Part shown: positions 14,710 to 35,693 of the stretch, one piece after another
Layout of the letters: every line of letters begins with the position of its first letter
Position numbering within the stretch: position 1 is the first letter of the stretch
From: a virus
IMG/VR virus record: IMGVR_UViG_3300028007_000005
Coordinates: 1 to 40,156 of that record
DNA length: 40,156 nt
Strand: one strand, 5' to 3'
Notes under the pieces: model-generated
Told to the model about the DNA's origin: nothing
The model's input: the letters and a program-made list of their open reading frames with translations, nothing else
The model's database searches: none
Translations under genes and position numbers: made by a program

Positions 14710-17360
14710 TACGTCAACTCCGTGACTCGTGCCGTCCCCGTACCCGTATCCAGGATGCCGTCGATCCGCCCAGTGTACATAGGAGAAGTCGGTAGCTCCA
14801 GCGTGGCCTGAGAAGTCAGTCGATAGGTGAACGACGTAGCAGAGGCCGTGGTGCCGTACTTGACGTAGAGAATACCCGACGAGTCGTTGTGGATGATGAC
14901 ACCCCTCCGGCTCGTGTTCGCCGCCAGCAGCTGCGCGCTCGCGGTCGAAGTAGCGACGTTGGTGAGAGTCGCGGTTGAGGTCTTCTCCGGTGCGGTCGTA
15001 ACGACGTAGCTAGACGGGATGAAGATCTTCTGCGCCCCGTCGGAGCCAATGTACGGCTTGTAGGCGTTGACCCCATCCCACCCGTACATGACGATACCGC
15101 GAGTGGGGGAAGCCGCTCCCTCTGCTGCCAGATTCAGGTCGTTCCCTGCACCATCCCCGATACGGGTCTTAGCGTTGCCGTTGGCGTCAACCCCGACAGT
15201 GTTGCCACCGCCAGACAGTTCGACCTTACCGACGAGGTTGCTCCCGGCAGGAAGCGCGGGAAGGCGGGTGACATCGACATCAAGACCGTGCGCCATCGTA
15301 CCAGGCGCGATTACGAGCTGGTTACCCGCCGATTCCGACGAATCGTGCAACCGAAGCGAGGTATCAACAAGAAGACGCTGCTTCAGCTCGTTAACAGCCG
15401 CACCTGATCCGTGCACCGCAGGCTCTACGATCCCTGTAAGCCAGCTGAACCCAAGAGCGGACGAATCATGCTTGAAGGTCGTTACCGACTGCACAGCCGG
15501 GTAGCTCGCAGGCAACGTGGGAGCCGTCGTAGGGGCAATCCAGTTCGGCCCCGACTCTACTCGCACATGCAGCGGGTTCGACGATCCAATGTCCGTCGTC
15601 CCGTCAGTGAGCCTGACCTTCCCGATGTAGTTGGTGCCCGCTGGAATCGAGGGCAGGGTTAGAACATCAACATCACCAATGTTGTTCTCGCCCGCCGGGA
15701 GGGGAGGCAACGTCAGGACATCAACATCCCCGATGTTATTGGTACCCGCCGGAAGAGAAGGCAACGTCAGAACGTCAACGTCGCCAATGTTGTTCGTACC
15801 GGCTGGAAGCGGTGGAAGCGTTAGAACATCTACGTCACCGATGTTGTTGTTTCCCGCCGGAAGCGCTGGAAGCGTCAGAACGTCAACGTCACCAATGTTG
15901 TTGTTGCCCGCTGGTAGGGAAGGCAACGTCAGAACGTCAACATCTCCGATGTTGTTCGTGCCCGCCGGAAGGGAGGGCAGCGTCAGGACATCAACGTCAC
16001 CAATGTTGTTGGTACCTGCCGCCAGACCGACCTCTTCCCGCCCAGAGTTCGTGTACTGCTGGGGGAAAAGACCGTACCCAGTGGAAACGTTGACAGACGC
16101 CGAACCCGACGTGTACGAGATACAGTTGACTCGGAAGTTCACCATTCCCGAAGTTGGGATGTAGAACGTTCCCCCTCCAGTCGCGTTGGTGACGTTGTTC
16201 ATGGCACCGTAGGCCGTGAGCGGTTGCCAGCTGCCGGTTCCATCGTGCGCTTCACCTTCGAACGCCAGAACAGCTGTGAACGTTCCGACGATACGCACCC
16301 GAATGTACGTCGCGAGACCAATGTCAGCGATCTGTACCAGCTGCCCAGCTCCTGTGATGGTGCCGGATGCAGACTTCGCCTTGATGTTGCGCACGTCGGC
16401 GTAGAGGCCGGTGGTGGAGCCGCGCAACCTGAACGCAGTCGCTCCATCCCACATGTAGGGGAAGACTGCCTGGATGCCGTAGTTGCGAGCGTCAGTCGTG
16501 ACTGAGAAGGTTTCCCCCGCTCCAATGTGGCTGAGAGCGTGGTACCAGGAAGGGCTTGCCCCCGTCCCGTTAGCGAGCTTGTTGAAGCTCGTCGTCGGTA
16601 CGGTGGAGAAGGTCGAGAGACCGTTGCCGTCTGAGTTGACCGTCGAGATGTCGGTGGTACCGTCCGTCAGGCGAACCCTACCAATGTAGTTGGTACCGGC
16701 AGCAATCCGCTTGACATCAACCGAAAGGCCGTTTGTGGCGTCAGCGGGGATGTTGGAGGTAGATCCGGGCACGCGCAGAACGTTGTAGAGACCCGTGCTC
16801 GTAACGTCGATACCCGTCTCAACCATGACCCCGTTGGCCGTATTGACTGCCATCGTTGGGAGAGGTGCCCACGGTGCGCCCATGACTCGATGCGCCGAGT
16901 AGGTCATCGTCCCCGAAGTCAGCGTTACGTTGATGTTGACCTGCAAGGGAGCAAAGACTCCAGGGATGTAGAAGAACCCGCTCTGGTTAGCACTATACGA
17001 CTCGTTCTCGCGCCACCTCTTATTGTTCACGTCGTAGTGCCGGATGAACCGGGTGGTGCTGTCTATCTGCGACTGGAACGTGAACGAGCCTGCCCAAGTG
17101 CCATAAACGTGGATGAGCAGCCCATGCGCACCATTCATCGGAATCGTTACGGTGGTGGTAGAGCTATGGCTACCAGTCTGGAAGCTGGGAGTGCTTTCAC
17201 GGTTGGTGACGTGGAGCGCCCCGTTCGTGCTGTCCATCGGGGTTGCACTACCGTCAGCAGACTGCGCCAGCTTGACAATCTGCACATGACCGGCAGCGCC
17301 AGCGTCATCAGTTGCTACAGTCGTACCTGACCCGGCGGTAATCTGAACGCCGTCAGCCAT
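14709..17360 (-). CDS. Large fibre-like structural protein with 18-residue repeats
   Basis: The 883-residue product is beta-rich, poor in charge, and built of repeated strands. Its middle (about 446-571) has seven near-identical 18-residue units with the core NNIGDVDVLTLP and linker xLPAG. Related degenerate modules (NYIGRVRLTDGTTDI, NYIGKVRLTDGTTDI, LPALPAGSNLVGKVEL) flank this array. Two further beta-sandwich-like regions (about 40-160 and 300-435) and a C-terminal domain with RRGVIIHNDSSGILYVKYG complete it. This resembles fibrous appendage or virion surface proteins. The ATG follows a perfect GGAGGTGACAC ribosome site. Repeat number may vary between relatives and alter length or reach. 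Confidence 0.72.
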   Translation of the reverse strand: MADGVQITAGSGTTVATDDAGAAGHVQIVKLAQSADGSATPMDSTNGALHVTNRESTPSFQTGSHSSTTTVTIPMNGAHGLLIHVYGTWAGSFTFQSQIDSTTRFIRHYDVNNKRWRENESYSANQSGFFYIPGVFAPLQVNINVTLTSGTMTYSAHRVMGAPWAPLPTMAVNTANGVMVETGIDVTSTGLYNVLRVPGSTSNIPADATNGLSVDVKRIAAGTNYIGRVRLTDGTTDISTVNSDGNGLSTFSTVPTTSFNKLANGTGASPSWYHALSHIGAGETFSVTTDARNYGIQAVFPYMWDGATAFRLRGSTTGLYADVRNIKAKSASGTITGAGQLVQIADIGLATYIRVRIVGTFTAVLAFEGEAHDGTGSWQPLTAYGAMNNVTNATGGGTFYIPTSGMVNFRVNCISYTSGSASVNVSTGYGLFPQQYTNSGREEVGLAAGTNNIGDVDVLTLPSLPAGTNNIGDVDVLTLPSLPAGNNNIGDVDVLTLPALPAGNNNIGDVDVLTLPPLPAGTNNIGDVDVLTLPSLPAGTNNIGDVDVLTLPPLPAGENNIGDVDVLTLPSIPAGTNYIGKVRLTDGTTDIGSSNPLHVRVESGPNWIAPTTAPTLPASYPAVQSVTTFKHDSSALGFSWLTGIVEPAVHGSGAAVNELKQRLLVDTSLRLHDSSESAGNQLVIAPGTMAHGLDVDVTRLPALPAGSNLVGKVELSGGGNTVGVDANGNAKTRIGDGAGNDLNLAAEGAASPTRGIVMYGWDGVNAYKPYIGSDGAQKIFIPSSYVVTTAPEKTSTATLTNVATSTASAQLLAANTSRRGVIIHNDSSGILYVKYGTTASATSFTYRLTSQATLELPTSPMYTGRIDGILDTGTGTARVTELT
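15646..16023 (-). repeat. Seven tandem 54-bp coding repeats
   Basis: Seven in-frame copies of a 54-bp unit encode GDVDVLTLP-xLPAG-xNNI with very little amino-acid change, mainly at the residues before LP and after PAG. Third-base differences between copies show they are not all recent, yet conservation of the peptide implies selection. Slippage or recombination could change copy number. Confidence 0.85.
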
Positions 17361-18387: not shown

Positions 18388-18711
18388 TTCACCTCCTCAG
18401 ATAGAGAAACAGCTGCCCCCGGCCGAACATCAGCCTTCAAGACGCCTCGCCAAGCGTCAAGCCGACCTCCGTCCAGCCGAGGGCACCCGTTCGCACCGCC
18501 TACCACAACGGCGCACGCTGCACCCACACACCAGCCAACGCCCCCCGCGAGGGGGCACGACCCAAAAGCCGAGGGACTTACCGGCTCAGCTCCCCGTCCG
18601 GGGCATCCAACCGTCACCAAGCGGCGGCGAACCGCCCGGATCAAGCCGTCAGCTACAGACAGGGCACCTACCCCGCGCCACGCCAACCGTGCAGCACCAA
18701 CGTTGGTACAG
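18388..18711 (-). other. GC-rich leader between tRNA-Gln and first left gene
   Basis: About 320 bases without a convincing gene. On the minus strand a frame from a TTG at 18686 to 18384 (100 residues) overlaps the next start as ATGA, but it lacks a ribosome site and its composition is odd, so it is not called. The region would be the untranslated leader that carries the tRNA transcript into the structural operon. Confidence 0.4.
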
Positions 18712-18782
18712 CTCGCTCCCTGGGATTCGAACCCAGACTACCTGATCCAGAATCAGGCGTCCTGCCGTTAGACCAGAAGCGA
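18712..18782 (-). tRNA. tRNA-Gln (anticodon CTG)
   Basis: A full cloverleaf reads on the minus strand. It has a 7-bp acceptor (TCGCTTC / GGAGCGA, one G-U), a 3-bp D stem, a 5-bp anticodon stem CCTGA/TCAGG with loop TTCTGGA (anticodon CTG), a 4-base variable loop and a 5-bp T stem with loop TTCGAAT. The discriminator is G and no CCA is encoded. It points the same way as the virion operon and is upstream of it, so it may be co-transcribed and help with CAG codons. Confidence 0.9.
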
Positions 18783-18959
18783 CATGAAGGAGACCATCAC
18801 CGCTCGCTACCCACCCCGGATGAACCGGGCCTAAGCCTCGTCCGTGTGATCCCCAACTCTCTGCCCTGGATGAAGGGGAGTCACCTCAACCCTTGCCCCC
18901 CGTCAGCGTCACGAGTTCGCGCCGGGGTGGTCGGAAGCTCCAGGGCAGCTCTGTTCCCG

Positions 18960-19210
18960 CCCTCCTGGCGGGGGGTTCCCTAGTATACTACAGGATACCA
19001 GGTATCTGCGTAGATACTTCCCCGTAAGGGGATAAAGGATAGTAGAGGATGGGATACTGAAGTATCCTACACAGGGAACCTTGGAGTACCCTAGTGAAGG
19101 TACTGGTAGGGTACTCAGAAAAGTATCCTCTACTTACTAATACGTAGAGAAGGGCGGTTTTGTTTCACTTAGAATGTTAAGATTCTGTAAGATCTAGTAG
19201 AGGGGTAGTT
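18960..19210. promoter_or_regulatory. A+T-rich palindrome array between divergent arms
   Basis: This stretch is clearly A+T-richer than its surroundings. It holds a series of inverted repeats related to GGATACT/AGTATCC: TAGTATACTA (18981-18990, self-complementary), GGATACC-A-GGTATCT (18993-19007), GGATACT-GA-AGTATCC (19052-19067) and GAGTACCCTA ... TAGGGTACTC (19084-19093 with 19107-19116, perfect 10 bp). A lone AGTATCC follows at 19122-19128, and CTCTAC ... GTAGAG at 19128-19149. Placement between the leftward structural arm and the rightward arm fits operators for divergent promoters or a replication origin with initiator sites. Which of the two is not decided by sequence. Confidence 0.6.
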
Positions 19211-19538
19211 TTTGGTAGGTTCTGACACCCCTAGAACCCCCTTCCAGACCCCCCGACTGTAGGGGTCGATGGGTATCTGAGCCGCATCAACAACATCCGC
19301 AAGTACCCCCTCAGAGGGGGGTACCCCCCTGGACTATTCTTAGGGGCGAGGACAGACCTCGATACCCTCCAACCTTCCCTCTCTCAAGCCCAGCATCCAT
19401 GCCTTTGAGCCAGGCATACCCCTACCCCGTATCGGTATGACTAGACATAAAACTCCCACCCCCTGCCGGGGGAGAAGGCAGCCTTGCGGCTCGTTCCACC
19501 CCAACCCGCCTCAGACAGAGGCAGAAAGAGAGGCAGAG
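19211..19538. other. Gene-free leader with C/G runs and hairpins
   Basis: No convincing gene is seen here. There are several G/C homopolymer runs and short hairpins, for example TACCCCCTC-AGAGGGGGGTA near 19303-19323 and CCCCCTGCCGGGGG near 19460. A longer start at 19437 would extend the next gene, but it runs through the hairpin and lacks a ribosome site. It is likely the leader of the rightward gene at 19539. Confidence 0.35.
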
Positions 19539-19895
19539 ATGCCCCGCAAGTCACAGACACAGACCGCTGTTCCGGCAGATGCGGTCGGCGCGCTCCTCGC
19601 AGCCCTCGGGATCTCCCCTGAGATCCTGGCAGCGGCTGTAGTCCCTGCAGAGACGGCGGAGCCGGAGGCGAAGCAGTCCAAGCAGTCCAAGCAGACGGCT
19701 GTTCGCACCGTGAAGCCGGAGAACGCCGACCAGCCGCCGACGTCGAAGCAGTCCTACTTCCTGCTGATGCGTGCGAGGGACTGCGGGCTGGAGACCTTCG
19801 CGATGCCCACCACGCGGCACGGCGCGGAGAAGTTGATCGGCGCAGTCTCGGCCGCGAAGTCCAAGGCCGCGAAGGTGAAGCTGCTCGCCGGGTAG
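19539..19895 (+). CDS. Small protein with VKPEN/PPT-Q module (copy 1)
   Basis: The start is placed at ATG 19539 because GAGAGG lies six bases before it, giving 118 residues. An Ala-rich helix (VGALLAALGISPEILAAAV) is followed by an acidic-basic linker (KQSKQSKQ) and a C-terminal module RTVKPENADQPPTSKQSYFLLMRARDCGLETFAMPTTRHGAEKLIGAV. The PPTSKQ...L...G pattern resembles the small actinobacterial DUF3072-type helix motif. The same module recurs in the gene at 21541, so they are paralogues flanking the structured RNA region. Function unknown; the Lys-rich, helical make-up would suit nucleic-acid or protein binding. A strong terminator follows. Confidence 0.7.
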   Translation: MPRKSQTQTAVPADAVGALLAALGISPEILAAAVVPAETAEPEAKQSKQSKQTAVRTVKPENADQPPTSKQSYFLLMRARDCGLETFAMPTTRHGAEKLIGAVSAAKSKAAKVKLLAG

Positions 19896-19918
19896 CCTCA
19901 GCTACAGCGGCAGTACGG

Positions 19919-19946
19919 AAAGGGCTCCCTCAGGGGAGCCCTTTTC
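19919..19946 (+). terminator. Intrinsic terminator
   Basis: AAGGGCTCC ... GGAGCCCTT forms a stem of about nine base pairs with a short loop, followed directly by TTTTCGTT. It lies 24 bases after the stop at 19895. This is a good rho-independent terminator isolating the small gene from the non-coding region downstream. Confidence 0.85.
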
Positions 19947-20480
19947 GTTGCCTGGAACGCGCGTACCCTGCTGGCAGTCTCCCTACTCACAGACTCGCAG
20001 GGTATTCCCTCCTACGATCCACGCTACGGCCGTTCTCCGGCCGTCTGACGCGACGCTAGCCTCCAGGGATAGTTAGACATCCCCTCAGACTTCCAGAGGC
20101 TTAGAAGGGCTTAGAATCGTTTTCCTGCTTTCAACGAGGATTCTGCCTGTCTGCCGATTCCCTGGCAGCAGTCCCCTACAGAGACAGTCGCGCCCATGCC
20201 TCAGCACACAGTGTCCCTGTACGCTGCACGATCGGCGGGGGGAAGTCATCCCTCTGTCTCAGCCGACCCGGTTGTCAAAGTCCCATCTAGTGAACAAGTG
20301 TCGCAGGTCACACTGTAGCAGATGCGCAAGTGCGTGTGTGTGCGTGTACTGTGCTGGTCGCGCGTGTGCAGCTCCCTACAGCAAGCTGAAGTCTCGTTGT
20401 CTCTCACGGTGTCTCAAGCGTTGCCAAATCGGTAAATGTCACAAAGTCCGGAGGGAAAAACCCCTGGAAATCGGCATGAT
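19947..20480. other. Non-coding spacer with hairpins and a GT-rich tract
   Basis: No supported gene. Visible elements include a perfect ACGGCCG-TTCTC-CGGCCGT hairpin (20026-20044), a tandem GGCTTAGAA pair near 20100, an AGAATC ... GATTCT inverted repeat, a GT-rich tract (about 20325-20355) and the first copy of TGTCACAAAGT (20437-20447). It lies between the terminator and the putative promoter of the structured RNA. Confidence 0.4.
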
Positions 20481-20510
20481 TTGACAAGCCCGTGTCACAA
20501 AGTTTACCCT
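20481..20510 (+). promoter_or_regulatory. Sigma-70 type promoter before structured region
   Basis: TTGACA (20481-20486) and TACCCT (20505-20510) are separated by 18 bp, with the most conserved -10 positions (TA...T) present. TGTCACAAAGT occurs inside the spacer (20493-20503) and 56 bp upstream (20437-20447), as an operator pair might. Transcription would start near 20517, just where dense secondary structure begins. Confidence 0.5.
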
Positions 20511-20512
20511 TC

Positions 20513-21470
20513 CGGGGACGGTTTCACCCCATTCAGCAATACAGAGGGGTCGCCGGGTGATTGCTCCCCGCACCGTCACACAGAGAGCATGATAGCAGGA
20601 GTCTGAGAGGGTCGCTTGGGCACAACAGTTAGTGCGAGGCGAAACCAAGACTCCCTGAGCAGCTTACGGTGAGCAGGCTGGAAGCGGCGACTTACAGAGA
20701 GGTCGCCCCACCCAGAAGCAATCCCGCTGAAGCTCTGAACTCGACAGCTAGAGACCAACTTCGCTCAGACGGCGAGAACGCCGGAGTACACAGCCCTGTG
20801 ATAAGGGCCAGTATGGGTCGTGGAGGCGATTCCCCGAGGGTAGTAGCCATGGGACAGCTTGCAGAAGGACTAGGCAAACCCCTCACCCCAGAGCCGTGTT
20901 GTTCCACGCTGCTTGAGTGCGACAAGCTAAGCCCATACTGTCTGGCGATGGCAACCTCCCCATGACGAGCAAACCAACGCCAGAGGTGCTGATTAGTCAG
21001 CTTTGCCGGGGGTTCAAAGCCCCGGACTCTGGTTGTCCCCTGCATTCGGACAGGGGCTACATGGAGGACAACATGACCAAGCGACACCGCATCGCCTGGA
21101 CGGACTGAGCGATGCTGCTCACTCCACAGGGAGAACTCGTCTACAGCACGGCAGCGCCCGTTCGGCGTCTAGTGCCGATGCAGTCGTCACCGCTGACCCG
21201 CATCCAGCGGGATCTAGCACACGTCATGACCTGCACCCGCGTTGGGTGCATCCGCTGCGGTAGCTAGGTAGCTGGCGCTCCGCTTGGAGCGTTGGTGAGG
21301 GTGGTTCGGGGGCTACCTAGTCTGCCGTAGTGAGATCGTCCCATGCAGCAGGGACGCTAAGCCCGTGCTGTAGGAGGGGCTATCAGAAAGCCACTCCCCC
21401 TGTGAGTACGCCAGGGCAGAGAGCTGCTGATAGGTCGGTAAGCGCGGTTCGATTCCGTGCCCCCTCCAGT
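20513..21470 (+). ncRNA. Candidate large structured non-coding RNA (~0.95 kb)
   Basis: No frame in this stretch looks like a gene, yet perfect helices follow one another throughout. They include GACGGT/ACCGTC (20518/20572), GGCGAC/GTCGCC (20686/20702), CGGCG-AGAA-CGCCG (20770-20783), GCCCT/AGGGC (20793/20804) and a 9-bp long-range CAGTATGGG/CCCATACTG (20809/20932) enclosing CGTGGA/TCCACG. Next come TCTGGCG/CGCCAGA (20941/20978), GCTGA-TTAG-TCAGC (20988-21001), CCGGGG/CCCCGG with T-loop-like GTTCAAAG (21006-21025), CCCCTG/CAGGGG (21037/21051) and GCATCGC/GCGATGC (21089/21109). TGCACCC/GGGTGCA (21232/21244), CTAGGTAGC/GCTACCTAG (21264/21312), CGTCCC/GGGACG (21337/21351) and a tRNA-like end complete it. 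Size, T-loops and tRNA proximity recall GOLLD or ROOL RNAs of phages; identity is inference. Confidence 0.6.
21373..21468 (+). ncRNA. tRNA-like domain, non-canonical (96 nt)
   Basis: A 7-bp acceptor-like stem (GGAGGGG 21373-21379 / CCCCTCC 21461-21467) with discriminator A joins a T-arm of 6 bp with the canonical loop TTCGATT (21442-21460). In place of the D and anticodon arms there is a 7-bp stem CTATCAG/CTGATAG (21380/21427) capped by CCCTG/CAGGG. No acceptable anticodon loop is visible, so it is not called a tRNA. It could be the 3' domain of the structured RNA, a decayed tRNA or a tRNA mimic. Confidence 0.55.
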
Positions 21471-21540
21471 ACACGCTGCTGAAAGAGCGCCAGTAGCGTG
21501 CGACTCCCCAACGCGCTCAAGAGCAACAAGGAGGCCTGTA

Positions 21541-22017
21541 GTGTCGGAGATGATCCTGCCCAAGACTGTGGCGGAAGCTCCCACCCTCGAAGCAGCGTTC
21601 GAGGCGTACCGCAAGACGCCAGGTGCGCGTTCTGCTCGGTGGAACGGCAACCTGACGTTCTCGAAGTTCCGTCGTGCTTTCGGCAAGGCGTTCGAGCAGA
21701 AGGAGACGCCGAGCGACGTGATCACCGGGCTTCTGGAGGCGCTGCTCGCCTTCAGCACGGGGGCCACTCAGCCCGTCGCTGCTGCTCCCGCCCCGGCTCC
21801 TCAGCCGAAGGACGCGGAGCGGAGCGTCAAGCCGGAGAACCAGCTCCTGCCGCCTACCAAGGGGCAGGTCTGGAAGCTGCGCATGGCTGCACTCGACGCG
21901 GGTGTAAGCGGCCCGTGGCGCTGCCCGATGTTCCGAGGGCAGGCCAGCGACCTGATCAAGCAGGTCGTCGAAGCCGGGAACGACAAGCAGGCGATCCGGC
22001 GCATCCTGCAGGCCTAG
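21541..22017 (+). CDS. VKPEN/PPT-Q module protein (copy 2)
   Basis: GTG 21541 is chosen because AAGGAGG lies six bases upstream; the product has 158 residues. Residues about 12-80 are a helical domain (TLEAAFEAYRKTPGARSARWNGNLTFSKFRRAFGKAF) absent from the gene at 19539. After an Ala/Pro linker, the C-terminal module RSVKPENQLLPPTKGQVWKLRMAALDAGVSGPW through ASDLIKQVVEAG matches that protein in spacing and key residues. Both therefore come from one ancestral module, one with an extra domain. No catalytic motif is visible. It lies directly after the structured RNA region. Confidence 0.7.
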   Translation: MSEMILPKTVAEAPTLEAAFEAYRKTPGARSARWNGNLTFSKFRRAFGKAFEQKETPSDVITGLLEALLAFSTGATQPVAAAPAPAPQPKDAERSVKPENQLLPPTKGQVWKLRMAALDAGVSGPWRCPMFRGQASDLIKQVVEAGNDKQAIRRILQA

Positions 22018-22093
22018 CATCACCGCACGGCAGAGTGGGTGTCACAACCTGCTCTGCCCATTCCAACACAACGTCCAGACAGGGCGTTTGAGG

Positions 22094-22264
22094 AATCGTG
22101 GGGCCGGGAGGCCCACTACTGCTAGTCCGTGACCGTTTCAGTCGGTCGTTAGGCGGTGTCGCGGTAGTGTCATAGAGTAAGGGCGCTAGGCTCATTATAC
22201 TAGGCCGACCCGTTCGCTGCTCTAGCTTCATGGTCTACGGGGTTCGACTCCCCAACCCACGATT
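22094..22264 (+). ncRNA. Second tRNA-like structured element (171 nt)
   Basis: A perfect 9-bp long-range stem (AATCGTGGG 22094-22102 / CCCACGATT 22256-22264) closes a branched structure. Next to its 3' strand is a T-arm-like hairpin GGGG-TTCGACT-CCCC (22239-22253). Inside is an arm CACTACTGC/GCGGTAGTG (22114/22161, one G-U) topped by GACCG-TTTCAGT-CGGTC (22131-22147), whose 7-base loop has the shape of an anticodon loop with TCA. The whole is too long for a tRNA and lies in a gene-free stretch. Confidence 0.5.
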
Positions 22265-22301
22265 CACCGCAATAACGCGGTGTGTACACAGGAGGTGCAG
22301 T

Positions 22302-22472
22302 ATGGCACGCGCAACGCTCACCCACCCCGTGCAGGGTGTAAGCGAGCCTCGTCAGGGTCACCAGCCGCATCGGACGGCGATCGGTGAGATGCTGGCGGTG
22401 CTCGCGCATGTCAGCCCGGAGAAGGCGCTCGTCGCGCAGCGGCTCGACAGCATCAGGCGCGGCAAGGCTTGA
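22302..22472 (+). CDS. Small basic protein, 56 residues
   Basis: ATG 22302 has a perfect GGAGGTG site six bases before it. The 56-residue product (MARATLTHPVQGVSEPRQGH...) has a disordered polar N-terminus and a helical C-terminus (TAIGEMLAVLAHVSPEKALVAQRLDSIRRGKA). No family is recognised. Its TGA overlaps the TTG start of the following membrane protein (TTGA), starting a run of coupled small genes. Confidence 0.6.
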   Translation: MARATLTHPVQGVSEPRQGHQPHRTAIGEMLAVLAHVSPEKALVAQRLDSIRRGKA

Positions 22473-22603
22473 ACACCGCGTACATCGTCATCGGGTTTCT
22501 GTTCTTCCTGAACGCCACGCTCATCGACCACAAGGGGGCAGCCATTCTGAGCTGGGCCGCCGGGGTCTCGTTCGTGACGGCAGGCGTGGTAGGCGCAGCA
22601 TGA
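22469..22603 (+). CDS. Tiny membrane protein, 44 residues
   Basis: From TTG 22469 the frame encodes NTAYIVIGFLFFLNATLIDHKGAA... then ILSWAAGVSFVTAGVVGAA, two hydrophobic segments separated by a short polar turn (IDHKG), a hairpin-like membrane protein. The start overlaps the previous stop and its TGA overlaps the next ATG (ATGA), so its reading frame is boxed in by coupling at both ends. Possible roles include superinfection exclusion or a holin-like accessory. None is proven. Confidence 0.55.
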   Translation: MNTAYIVIGFLFFLNATLIDHKGAAILSWAAGVSFVTAGVVGAA

Positions 22604-31028: not shown

Positions 31029-31104
31029 TGGTGGAGCTGACGTGACTCGAACCCGCGACCTCAGAATTGACAGTCCTGCGCTCTCCCAACTGAGCTACAG
31101 CCCC
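31029..31104 (-). tRNA. tRNA-Asp (anticodon GTC), CCA encoded
   Basis: The minus strand gives a full cloverleaf. It has acceptor GGGGCTG/CAGCTCC (one G-U), a D arm with AGCTCAGTTGGGAGAGC, and anticodon stem CAGGA/TTCTG with loop CTGTCAA (anticodon GTC). The T-arm has loop TTCGAGT, the discriminator is A, and CCA is encoded at 31031-31029. It is antisense to the genes around it and needs its own promoter; I see no clear one. Confidence 0.93.
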
Positions 31105-31779: not shown

Positions 31780-32426
31780 ACCTCACCCTCCTTGCAGCGT
31801 GTGCCGACGACCTCTCTGTCGTCAACGCCGCGAGGGTGTCTTTCAACCAGGAGGCGGGAGAGCTGAGCGAGAAGGACACGGGACTCATCGGGTTCCTGAT
31901 GCGGGAGCGTCACGGCTCCCCCTTCGAGCACGGCTACTTCCGCTTCCTGGTGGAAGCACCTATCTTCGTGGCTCGGGAGCACATGCGTCACAGGATCGGC
32001 CACTCCTACAATGAGTGGTCGGGCCGGTACTCGAAAATCGACACCGTGGGATTCAAGCCCACCTGGATTCGGAAGCAGATCGGGAAGCCCGGCGCGTACA
32101 GCTACGAGGACGTGGACTTGGACACCCGTGATGTGGCTCTCCTGTCTCTCGACCATCTGTACAACAACGCTTTCGAGACCTACGAGTACATGCTGGAGAA
32201 GGGCGTGGCTAAGGAGGTCGCCCGGATGGTGCTTCCGGTGGGGACGATGACCAAGTACTTCTGGTCGTGCAACCCCCGCTCGCTCATGCACTTCCTCTCC
32301 CTCCGCAACCACGAGTCCGCGCAGTATGAGATCCAGACGGTCGCGCACATGGCCGAGAACTACCTGGCGCAGCACATGCCTGTCACATACGATGCCTTCA
32401 TCGACAACGGAAGGCAGGCACCGTGA
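31776..32426 (+). CDS. thyX: FAD-dependent thymidylate synthase ThyX
   Basis: The 216-residue protein has the ThyX signature RHRIGHSYNEWSGRY (71-85, pattern RHRxxSxNExSxRY) and the preceding RHGSPFEH (45-52). It converts dUMP to dTMP using methylene-tetrahydrofolate, NADPH and FAD. The C-terminal CNPRSLMHFLSLRNHESAQYEI supplies further active-site residues. The length is normal for the family. The GTG start overlaps the preceding TGA and its stop overlaps the polymerase GTG, so it belongs to a coupled replication operon. Confidence 0.95.
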   Translation: MNLTLLAACADDLSVVNAARVSFNQEAGELSEKDTGLIGFLMRERHGSPFEHGYFRFLVEAPIFVAREHMRHRIGHSYNEWSGRYSKIDTVGFKPTWIRKQIGKPGAYSYEDVDLDTRDVALLSLDHLYNNAFETYEYMLEKGVAKEVARMVLPVGTMTKYFWSCNPRSLMHFLSLRNHESAQYEIQTVAHMAENYLAQHMPVTYDAFIDNGRQAP

Positions 32427-33367
32427 TCGCGGTTGACACCGAGACCACAGGGGTCATGTTCCACGACCGAGCGTTCCTCGCCTCGTTCGCATTCCGTCAT
32501 GGGAGTGAGCTTCGCTCCCATGTAGCAGAGATCCCCGCCGAAGTAGATGTATGCCGCACCGTGATGGAGAACATGAAGCCGTGGCTCTTTCACAACGCGA
32601 AGTTCGATCTACAGAAGCTGATCCAGGCTGGGGTTATCAAGCGTGAGCAAGTGTCGGTGGACTCCTTCCACGACACACAGACGATCGCCTACCTCATCAA
32701 CGAGCACCAGGAACTAGGCCTGAAGAAGCTGGCCAAGAACCTCCTAGGGGAGGAGACGAACGAGCTGGAGGCGATCAACCAGGAGAAGAAGCGGCTGAAG
32801 AAGGAGTTAGGCCTTCAGTCCGTGCATGACGTGTCCTACGATCTAATCCCCCGTGAGGTGCTGACACCTTACGCCCTAAAGGATGCGGAGTTCACGCTCC
32901 GTCTCTTCGAGATCCTCTATCCGCTACTACCGGAGGAGATGTACCGGCTCTACGACATGGAGCGGGAACTGATTCTAGTACTGCTGGATGTAGAGGCGCG
33001 GGGAATCAAGATCGACACCGCCTACCTGGAAGAGAAGGAGGAGGAGTACCGTAAGAAGATCTTCTACAAGGAGTTGGAGATCAAGGAACTGGCAGGGGAT
33101 GACGATTTCAACCCCAACAGCCCTCAGCAGGTACTCAAGTGGTACGAAGACAACGGGTATGTCATCCTCGACACGACTCGAAAGAGTCTCGTGGAGGCTG
33201 ATGTTCCTCTAGGTCTAGCAATCGTGGAGTTGAAGAAGATGCGCAAGCTGCACGGCACCTACATGAAAGGCCTCTTGGCTGAGGTGCACGACGGTCTAGT
33301 TCATCCGAACTTCAACCCCGCCAGGACAAAGACAGGAAGGATGAGTTCAAGTGGCAGCGCGGATTAG
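32423..33367 (+). CDS. DNA polymerase family A, N-terminal part (exo and thumb)
   Basis: The 314-residue product starts at once with the 3'-5' exonuclease: DTETTG (5-10), HNAKFDLQKL (57-66) and YALKDAEFTLRL. It continues through the thumb (MERELILVLLDVEARGIKID, NPNSPQQVLKWYEDNGY) to HPNFNPARTKTGRMSSSG. There it stops after SAD, in the middle of the highly conserved TGRxSS-xxNxQNIP element. The rest of the polymerase reappears at about 34881. Thus this polypeptide lacks the catalytic palm and fingers. The next gene starts inside its last codons. Confidence 0.85.
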   Translation: MIAVDTETTGVMFHDRAFLASFAFRHGSELRSHVAEIPAEVDVCRTVMENMKPWLFHNAKFDLQKLIQAGVIKREQVSVDSFHDTQTIAYLINEHQELGLKKLAKNLLGEETNELEAINQEKKRLKKELGLQSVHDVSYDLIPREVLTPYALKDAEFTLRLFEILYPLLPEEMYRLYDMERELILVLLDVEARGIKIDTAYLEEKEEEYRKKIFYKELEIKELAGDDDFNPNSPQQVLKWYEDNGYVILDTTRKSLVEADVPLGLAIVELKKMRKLHGTYMKGLLAEVHDGLVHPNFNPARTKTGRMSSSGSAD

Positions 33368-35004: not shown

Positions 35005-35693
35005 AGCGCATAGGCTTCCCGGAGATGGCGGACATGTTCCGCAACAACATCGACATCTACATCGAGACCGCGAAGCCGATCGTTGGAAAGGAGGAGATCG
35101 AAGAAGCCGACCGAGACATGGCGAAGGTGGTGTTCCTCTCCCAGACCTACGGGGGTGGGCTACCTACCCTCATCGACCAGCTGGGCAAGACACCGAAGGA
35201 GTGCATGGTCATCCTCAAGCGGTTCCATGGCGCATGGCCAGGACTAGGGTGGGAGACACGGAAGGTTCCCGCCGATCCCTGGACGCTCCTTGGTCACCTT
35301 CAGCGAAAGTTGGATGAGCAGGGCTACATCAAAACGCTGTGGGGCCGGAGGTTGCATCCCGAGGAGCCGCACAAGCGGCTGAACGTCTTGATCCAGGGCT
35401 GTGCAGCAGACCTGATGAGGTCTGCGCTCATCAAGGTGCACCGCTTCCTGGTCGCCAACGAATGCCAGTCGCACATCATCTCCACGGTTCACGACGAGAT
35501 CATCCTCGACGTGGATGAGGACGAAGTGCCGTTCATCGTGGAGTGGGTGCCCGAGCTGATGCGGTACCCGGAAGTTCACAAGACCATCCCCATGGAGGTG
35601 GATGTTGAGTTCAGCACAACGTCGTGGGCGGAGAAAGCGTACTGGCAAGGGGAACTACACCCCTCCGCTTCACCCACTCTATGCACGTCTTAG
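34881..35693 (+). CDS. DNA polymerase family A, C-terminal part (palm/fingers)
   Basis: Translation in this frame begins NFQNIPRKDT, the exact continuation of TGRxSS in family A polymerases. It keeps motif A FFFDYKSIEPR (Asp codon 34962-34964), motif B MAKVVFLSQTYGG and motif C VHDEIILDVDE, so the catalytic site is intact. The frame is bounded upstream by TGA at 34866. The first ATG (35025) lies after motif A and cannot make an active enzyme. An AGGAGG site at 34870-34875 sits five bases before ACG 34881, suggesting ACG initiation; splicing or frameshifting are alternatives. The start given is therefore tentative. Confidence 0.7.
   Translation, partial: TNFQNIPRKDTIIKAAIIPKLDALFFFDYKSIEPRLTAYYLERIGFPEMADMFRNNIDIYIETAKPIVGKEEIEEADRDMAKVVFLSQTYGGGLPTLIDQLGKTPKECMVILKRFHGAWPGLGWETRKVPADPWTLLGHLQRKLDEQGYIKTLWGRRLHPEEPHKRLNVLIQGCAADLMRSALIKVHRFLVANECQSHIISTVHDEIILDVDEDEVPFIVEWVPELMRYPEVHKTIPMEVDVEFSTTSWAEKAYWQGELHPSASPTLCTS

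Follow-up and report, generated by a model that had tools for sequence, protein, structure and literature searches.

A position-conserved, sequence-variable non-coding stretch with tRNA-like modules at the putative head of a phage early operon

GOLLD, ROOL and similar large phage RNAs were discovered through sequence conservation. GOLLD is often located near tRNA genes and is expressed in lysis, and both GOLLD and ROOL are reported to assemble from RNA alone into multimeric cages whose kissing loops covary. Structured untranslated RNAs that are only tens of bases long are found right after phage early promoters in the put sites of HK022 and the nut sites of lambda, and in the eukaryotic MALAT1/mascRNA system a tRNA-like fold ends a long non-coding RNA and could direct its cleavage by RNase P. 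GOLLD possesses a universally conserved 3' region and a variable 5' region, and the size, phage origin and general tRNA association of GOLLD and ROOL are documented (PMC12286853); in mycobacteria, a pseudo-tRNA has been described within a GOLLD gene (PMC6582537).

The locus analyzed here belongs to a linear virus record of 40,156 bases (hereafter the window), which carries portal, terminase, primase-helicase and DNA polymerase genes. The best relatives of the portal in the phage collection are 22–29% identical and come mostly from actinobacteria phages. No relatives of the region at the DNA level were recovered from the phage and plasmid records searched, one nucleotide search at E ≤ 10 yielding just short matches at chance level. 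Three relatives were retained from IMG/VR: IMGVR_UViG_3300046838_000098 (G001), IMGVR_UViG_3300022467_001184 (L060) and IMGVR_UViG_3300021517_000016 (L076). Several features elsewhere in the window deserve mention in their own right. The family A DNA polymerase is split over two genes (32423–33367, exonuclease and N-terminal part; 35025–35693, C-terminal part) with other reading frames between them, and is also split in G001. The segment 23394–28533 holds a cassette of amidoligase-like, glutamine-amidotransferase-like and ATP-grasp-like genes whose relatives in G001 keep that order, the family matches being weak for the amidoligase-like and ATP-grasp-like proteins. Periodic repeats of about 54 bases occur at 15622–16025 in the gene of an 883-residue protein, and similar repeats are present in many other phage contigs. 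An intact tRNA-Asp gene is located at 31029–31104 on the minus strand, opposite to the early genes.

In all four phages (the window and its three relatives) a long non-coding stretch of 1.3–1.65 kb is found at the same spot (Table 1), within a common gene order of structural genes, a non-coding gap, a short gene, the long non-coding stretch and the next gene. The stretch is flanked by a pair of paralogs in the window, G001 and L060, and in L076 the upstream paralog alone can be recognized, weakly. The paralogy of the two genes bordering the candidate in the window, claimed in an earlier note on this DNA, is confirmed by BLASTP (E 6e-8); in comparisons of the upstream gene P0002, the in-frame ATG at 19539 was taken as the start. 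Neither paralog matches Pfam or PHROGs above cut-off, and the predicted structure of the flanking paralog, with a mean pLDDT of 67.6, is too low in confidence to be fit for a structure search. A non-coding stretch of about 650 bases (18790–19436) with many AGTATCC/GGATAC hairpins precedes the upstream paralog, and the relatives likewise have a non-coding gap ahead of their upstream short gene.

Table 1. Coordinates of the features discussed (positions in the window unless a relative is named).
Feature	Coordinates	Strand	Remarks
Long non-coding stretch	window 19896–21540; G001 19922–21235; L060 750–2153; L076 5824–7101		non-coding by codon score in all
Upstream paralog P0002	19437..19895	+	152 aa from first ATG
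Terminator-like stem-loop with T-rich tail, after upstream gene	19915..19948	+	inverted repeat
Tandem CTTAGAANGGCTTAGAA element	20100..20117	+	once in window, once each in two relatives, same region
Operator-like direct repeat TGTCACAAAGT, copy 1	20437..20447	+	
Putative promoter TTGACA-18-TACCCT	20481..20510	+	ATTTGACAAGC context also in L060
Operator-like direct repeat TGTCACAAAGT, copy 2	20493..20503	+	within promoter spacer
Candidate non-coding leader RNA	20517..21540	+	start inferred; non-coding by codon score, syntenic, skew sign change
9-bp long-range stem	20809..20940	+	3' strand inside 16-nt direct repeat
tRNA-like module 1	20979..21033	+	7-bp acceptor, 5-bp hairpin, T-arm
tRNA-like module 2	21373..21467	+	7-bp acceptor, long hairpin, 6-bp T-arm, TTCGATT loop
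Downstream paralog P0001	21541..22017	+	158 aa, GTG start
tRNA-like module 3	22093..22265	+	10-bp acceptor, 4-bp T-arm, TTCGACT loop; in non-coding stretch 22018–22301

The terminase of the window is 58–60% identical to those of G001 and L060, which share 79% identity with each other. The upstream half of the non-coding stretch can be aligned between the window and L060 (score 100, the best of 200 shuffles reaching 69) and between the window and L076 (87 versus 77 for shuffles); the former alignment spans the region from the terminator to the TTGACA of the promoter, where ATTTGACAAGC is identical. The downstream half, corresponding to the candidate RNA, is not alignable between the window and any of the three relatives (p 0.47–0.63), no part of it rising above shuffles in such comparisons as a conserved 3' region of the GOLLD type would. 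G001 and L060 give a marginal p of 0.035 in this half despite the similarity of their terminases, and L060 and L076 a p of 0.005 for a weak alignment without other support; a comparison of structure profiles among the relatives performs no better than coding controls. The long non-coding stretch is kept in place and its sequence is not kept.

Across almost the whole of 19900–21500 the codon-usage score is lower than in 99% of gene windows, in agreement with the earlier note, which had seen no plausible gene there, and a hidden gene is rejected on this low score together with the lack of convincing peptide similarity between the non-coding stretches. The individual helices also recur: where more than ten had been reported, 12 near-perfect hairpins (at least 6 bp, at most one G-U, loop of 3–12) are counted within 20513–21470, three of them overlapping at 21000–21025, with a 13th hairpin of 10 bp just past the region at 21472–21500. 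Likewise, the reported 9-bp long-range stem, in which CAGTATGGG (20809–20817) pairs with CCCATACTG (20932–20940), is present in the minimum free energy (MFE) fold, the direct repeat that contains its 3' strand occurring at 20926–20941 and 21356–21371. What did not withstand comparison with the rest of the genome is the description of the region as highly structured, as both its z-score and its number of hairpins match those of coding DNA. The MFE of 20513–21480 is below that of dinucleotide shuffles (z −4.8; −3.5 in another computation), but among the remaining 968-base segments of the genome, almost all of which are coding, about one in five has an equal or lower z (down to −6.3). Local windows of 240 bases across the region fold unremarkably, and hairpins are about as dense as in the genome on average (13 versus 11.0 per 960 nt, 30% of windows reaching as many). 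Since the genome is GC-rich and its coding segments fold equally well, an RNA is not identifiable here by stability alone; unusual fold stability is rejected on these coding controls, and folding beyond that of the rest of the genome, which would point to a new class of structured RNA, was not found.

It is quite possible, though short of probable, that the stretch is a plain untranslated control region, the upstream half being an early promoter/operator and the rest a rapidly changing leader whose overall fold is not under selection, as only the upstream half is alignable and the structure remains at the level of coding DNA and is not common to the relatives above controls. Such a region would not readily account for the roughly 0.6–1 kb of non-coding DNA that all four of these compact phage genomes retain beyond the promoter position, for the clustering of the tRNA-like modules described below, or for the corresponding segment of L076, which is one of the most stably folded parts of its locus (z −5.3 to −8.1). 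The L076 segment also closes with a stem-loop and a run of six T ahead of the next gene, the kind of end expected of a separate transcript.

We tentatively prefer, at somewhat less than an even chance, to regard the stretch as a long untranslated early leader, possibly released by tRNA-type processing, that would act as a structured early RNA. Its transcription would begin at a promoter near 20481–20510, just upstream of the candidate, from which the rightward early operon would start. The TTGACA of the promoter proposed in the earlier note is indeed present (20481–20486), whereas a scan with the sigma-70 consensus calls no promoter in the window, nor in L076; the only −10 element available is TACCCT, of the TANNNT type, after an 18-nt spacer. 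In G001, TAGACA-17-TAGAGT is found near the start of its counterpart. In all four phages, GC skew switches from negative before the putative start to positive after it, and a transcription start near the promoter fits this change of sign. The operator-like repeat TGTCACAAAGT has just two copies in the window, both at the putative promoter, a number that 7 of 100 shuffles reach when matches with one mismatch are counted. Further upstream, the terminator-like element weakly matches a model of a stem-loop-ending sRNA and is aligned with relatives.

The same repeats and skew could be read as a replication origin or a similar DNA site with iteron-like repeats, which we consider improbable: tandem CTTAGAA and TGTCACAAAGT repeats and a local GC-skew minimum at 20287 are indeed present, but the change in skew equally fits transcription, the global minimum is located elsewhere (11963), the repeats cluster by the promoter instead of being spread over 1 kb, and no initiator gene was identified adjoining the stretch. 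As a separate observation, many phage contigs that seem unrelated, including L083, L087, L095, L100, L128 and L143, carry the tandem 10-bp repeat CTTAGAANGGCTTAGAA(NGG) between genes; in several of them it sits about 20 bases ahead of a TTGACA, and many more matches fall inside one conserved long reading frame of about 707 aa. Judged from its occurrences, the repeat looks like a widespread phage control site. The CTTAGAA scan revealed no new close relative of the phage among the loci listed.

The T-loop-like hairpins and the tRNA-like end noticed earlier are both recovered, the former at 21013 and 21448 and a further one at 22243, and the latter as the acceptor plus T-arm that closes the region (module 2). 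Module 3 is outside the coordinates of the earlier note (20513–21470); the short non-coding stretch after the downstream paralog that holds it has a strong fold (z −4.6). We defined a module as a T-loop hairpin (TTCRANN, at least 4 bp) with the 3' strand of a perfect stem, 6 bp or longer, starting no more than 3 bases after it. This descriptor finds four places on both strands of the window, three of them on the plus strand of non-coding DNA within 1.3 kb, compared with an expectation from shuffling of 0.47 for the entire 40 kb, both strands counted; the excess is suggestive and does not constitute a clean test, since module 2 was already known when the descriptor was written, with tolerances chosen so that all three would pass. 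Taken by themselves, modules 1 and 2 adopt the same three-way junction (z −3.5 and −3.8), and in MFE folds of the module 3 stretch the acceptor stem forms while the T-arm bases pair differently. The descriptor finds nothing in the corresponding non-coding stretches of the relatives. The Rfam tRNA-Sec model scores 19.2 bits on module 2 against a cut-off of 47, with support mainly from the acceptor and T-arm. No complete cloverleaf is called in the region by ARAGORN or the Rfam tRNA model, and neither a tRNA gene nor a tmRNA is found there, ARAGORN and Rfam giving no match.

Three acceptor plus T-arm units in line, the contact of the tRNA-Sec model with module 2 and the two intact tRNA genes of the window, both outside the candidate region, might suggest the remains of a tRNA gene cluster. 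That the modules are decayed tRNAs is nevertheless quite improbable: their acceptor stems are perfect whereas the remaining arms are missing or have long hairpins in their place, a pattern that weakens this reading since decay should not spare stems, and none of the three units is called as a tRNA. A divergent GOLLD or ROOL RNA forming a multimeric cage, the identity first suggested for the candidate, would suit its size, phage origin and general tRNA association (PMC12286853) and a mycobacterial GOLLD gene with a pseudo-tRNA inside (PMC6582537), but is very improbable, as the GOLLD and ROOL covariance models give no match at E ≤ 10 in 20480–22310 or at E ≤ 1 in 19900–22500 and in the three relatives, and as the site is outside any tRNA island. 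The nearest tRNA gene (18711–18782) is single and on the opposite strand. Every other Rfam family is rejected as well, with no match above cut-off in the region.

The safest statement is that the early operon opens with an untranslated leader, about 1 kb long, to which the candidate corresponds. The absence of a coding signal, the synteny in four phages, the conserved position and partly conserved sequence of the promoter, and the change of skew sign support the reading as a non-coding element that is probably transcribed and has tRNA-like parts. If the leader is released as we tentatively propose, the early operon would first yield an untranslated RNA of about 1 kb ahead of the gene at 21541, and the acceptor-stem-plus-T-arm modules might be cut by the host RNase P and RNase Z. 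Cutting would release from the early mRNA a non-coding RNA of about 0.86–0.95 kb, which may act as a structured early RNA, either as a control element (e.g. an antitermination leader) or as a scaffold. The bolder proposal of a large non-coding RNA of a new type in phages, produced where the early operon begins, cut from early mRNA by host tRNA-processing enzymes via repeated modules and with a sequence turnover so fast that position and promoter alone remain recognizable, is unlikely, though it should be kept in mind. Of the ideas for this stretch, tRNA-type processing lends itself best to testing, and the modules offer a direct and cheap biochemical handle on it. Untranslated early-operon stretches that are conserved in position and variable in sequence would escape the searches that revealed GOLLD and ROOL, since those rely on sequence conservation; if such stretches are transcribed and processed, RNAs of this type would be commoner than covariance searches suggest.

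Compared with the known systems, the candidate differs from ROOL in having no covariance-model match and no alignable homologues found, although ROOL is, like it, a large non-coding RNA of phages and prophages. With HK022 put and lambda nut it shares a similar placing as an early leader, but it measures about 1 kb and contains no recognized motif. As in MALAT1/mascRNA it has a tRNA-like end, but lacks a full cloverleaf, and its processing is putative. Unlike GOLLD, it gives no covariance-model match, shows no 3' region conserved among its relatives and is not in a tRNA island; like GOLLD, it is phage-encoded, around 0.8–0.9 kb in length, and of a kind in which tRNA or pseudo-tRNA elements may lie inside.
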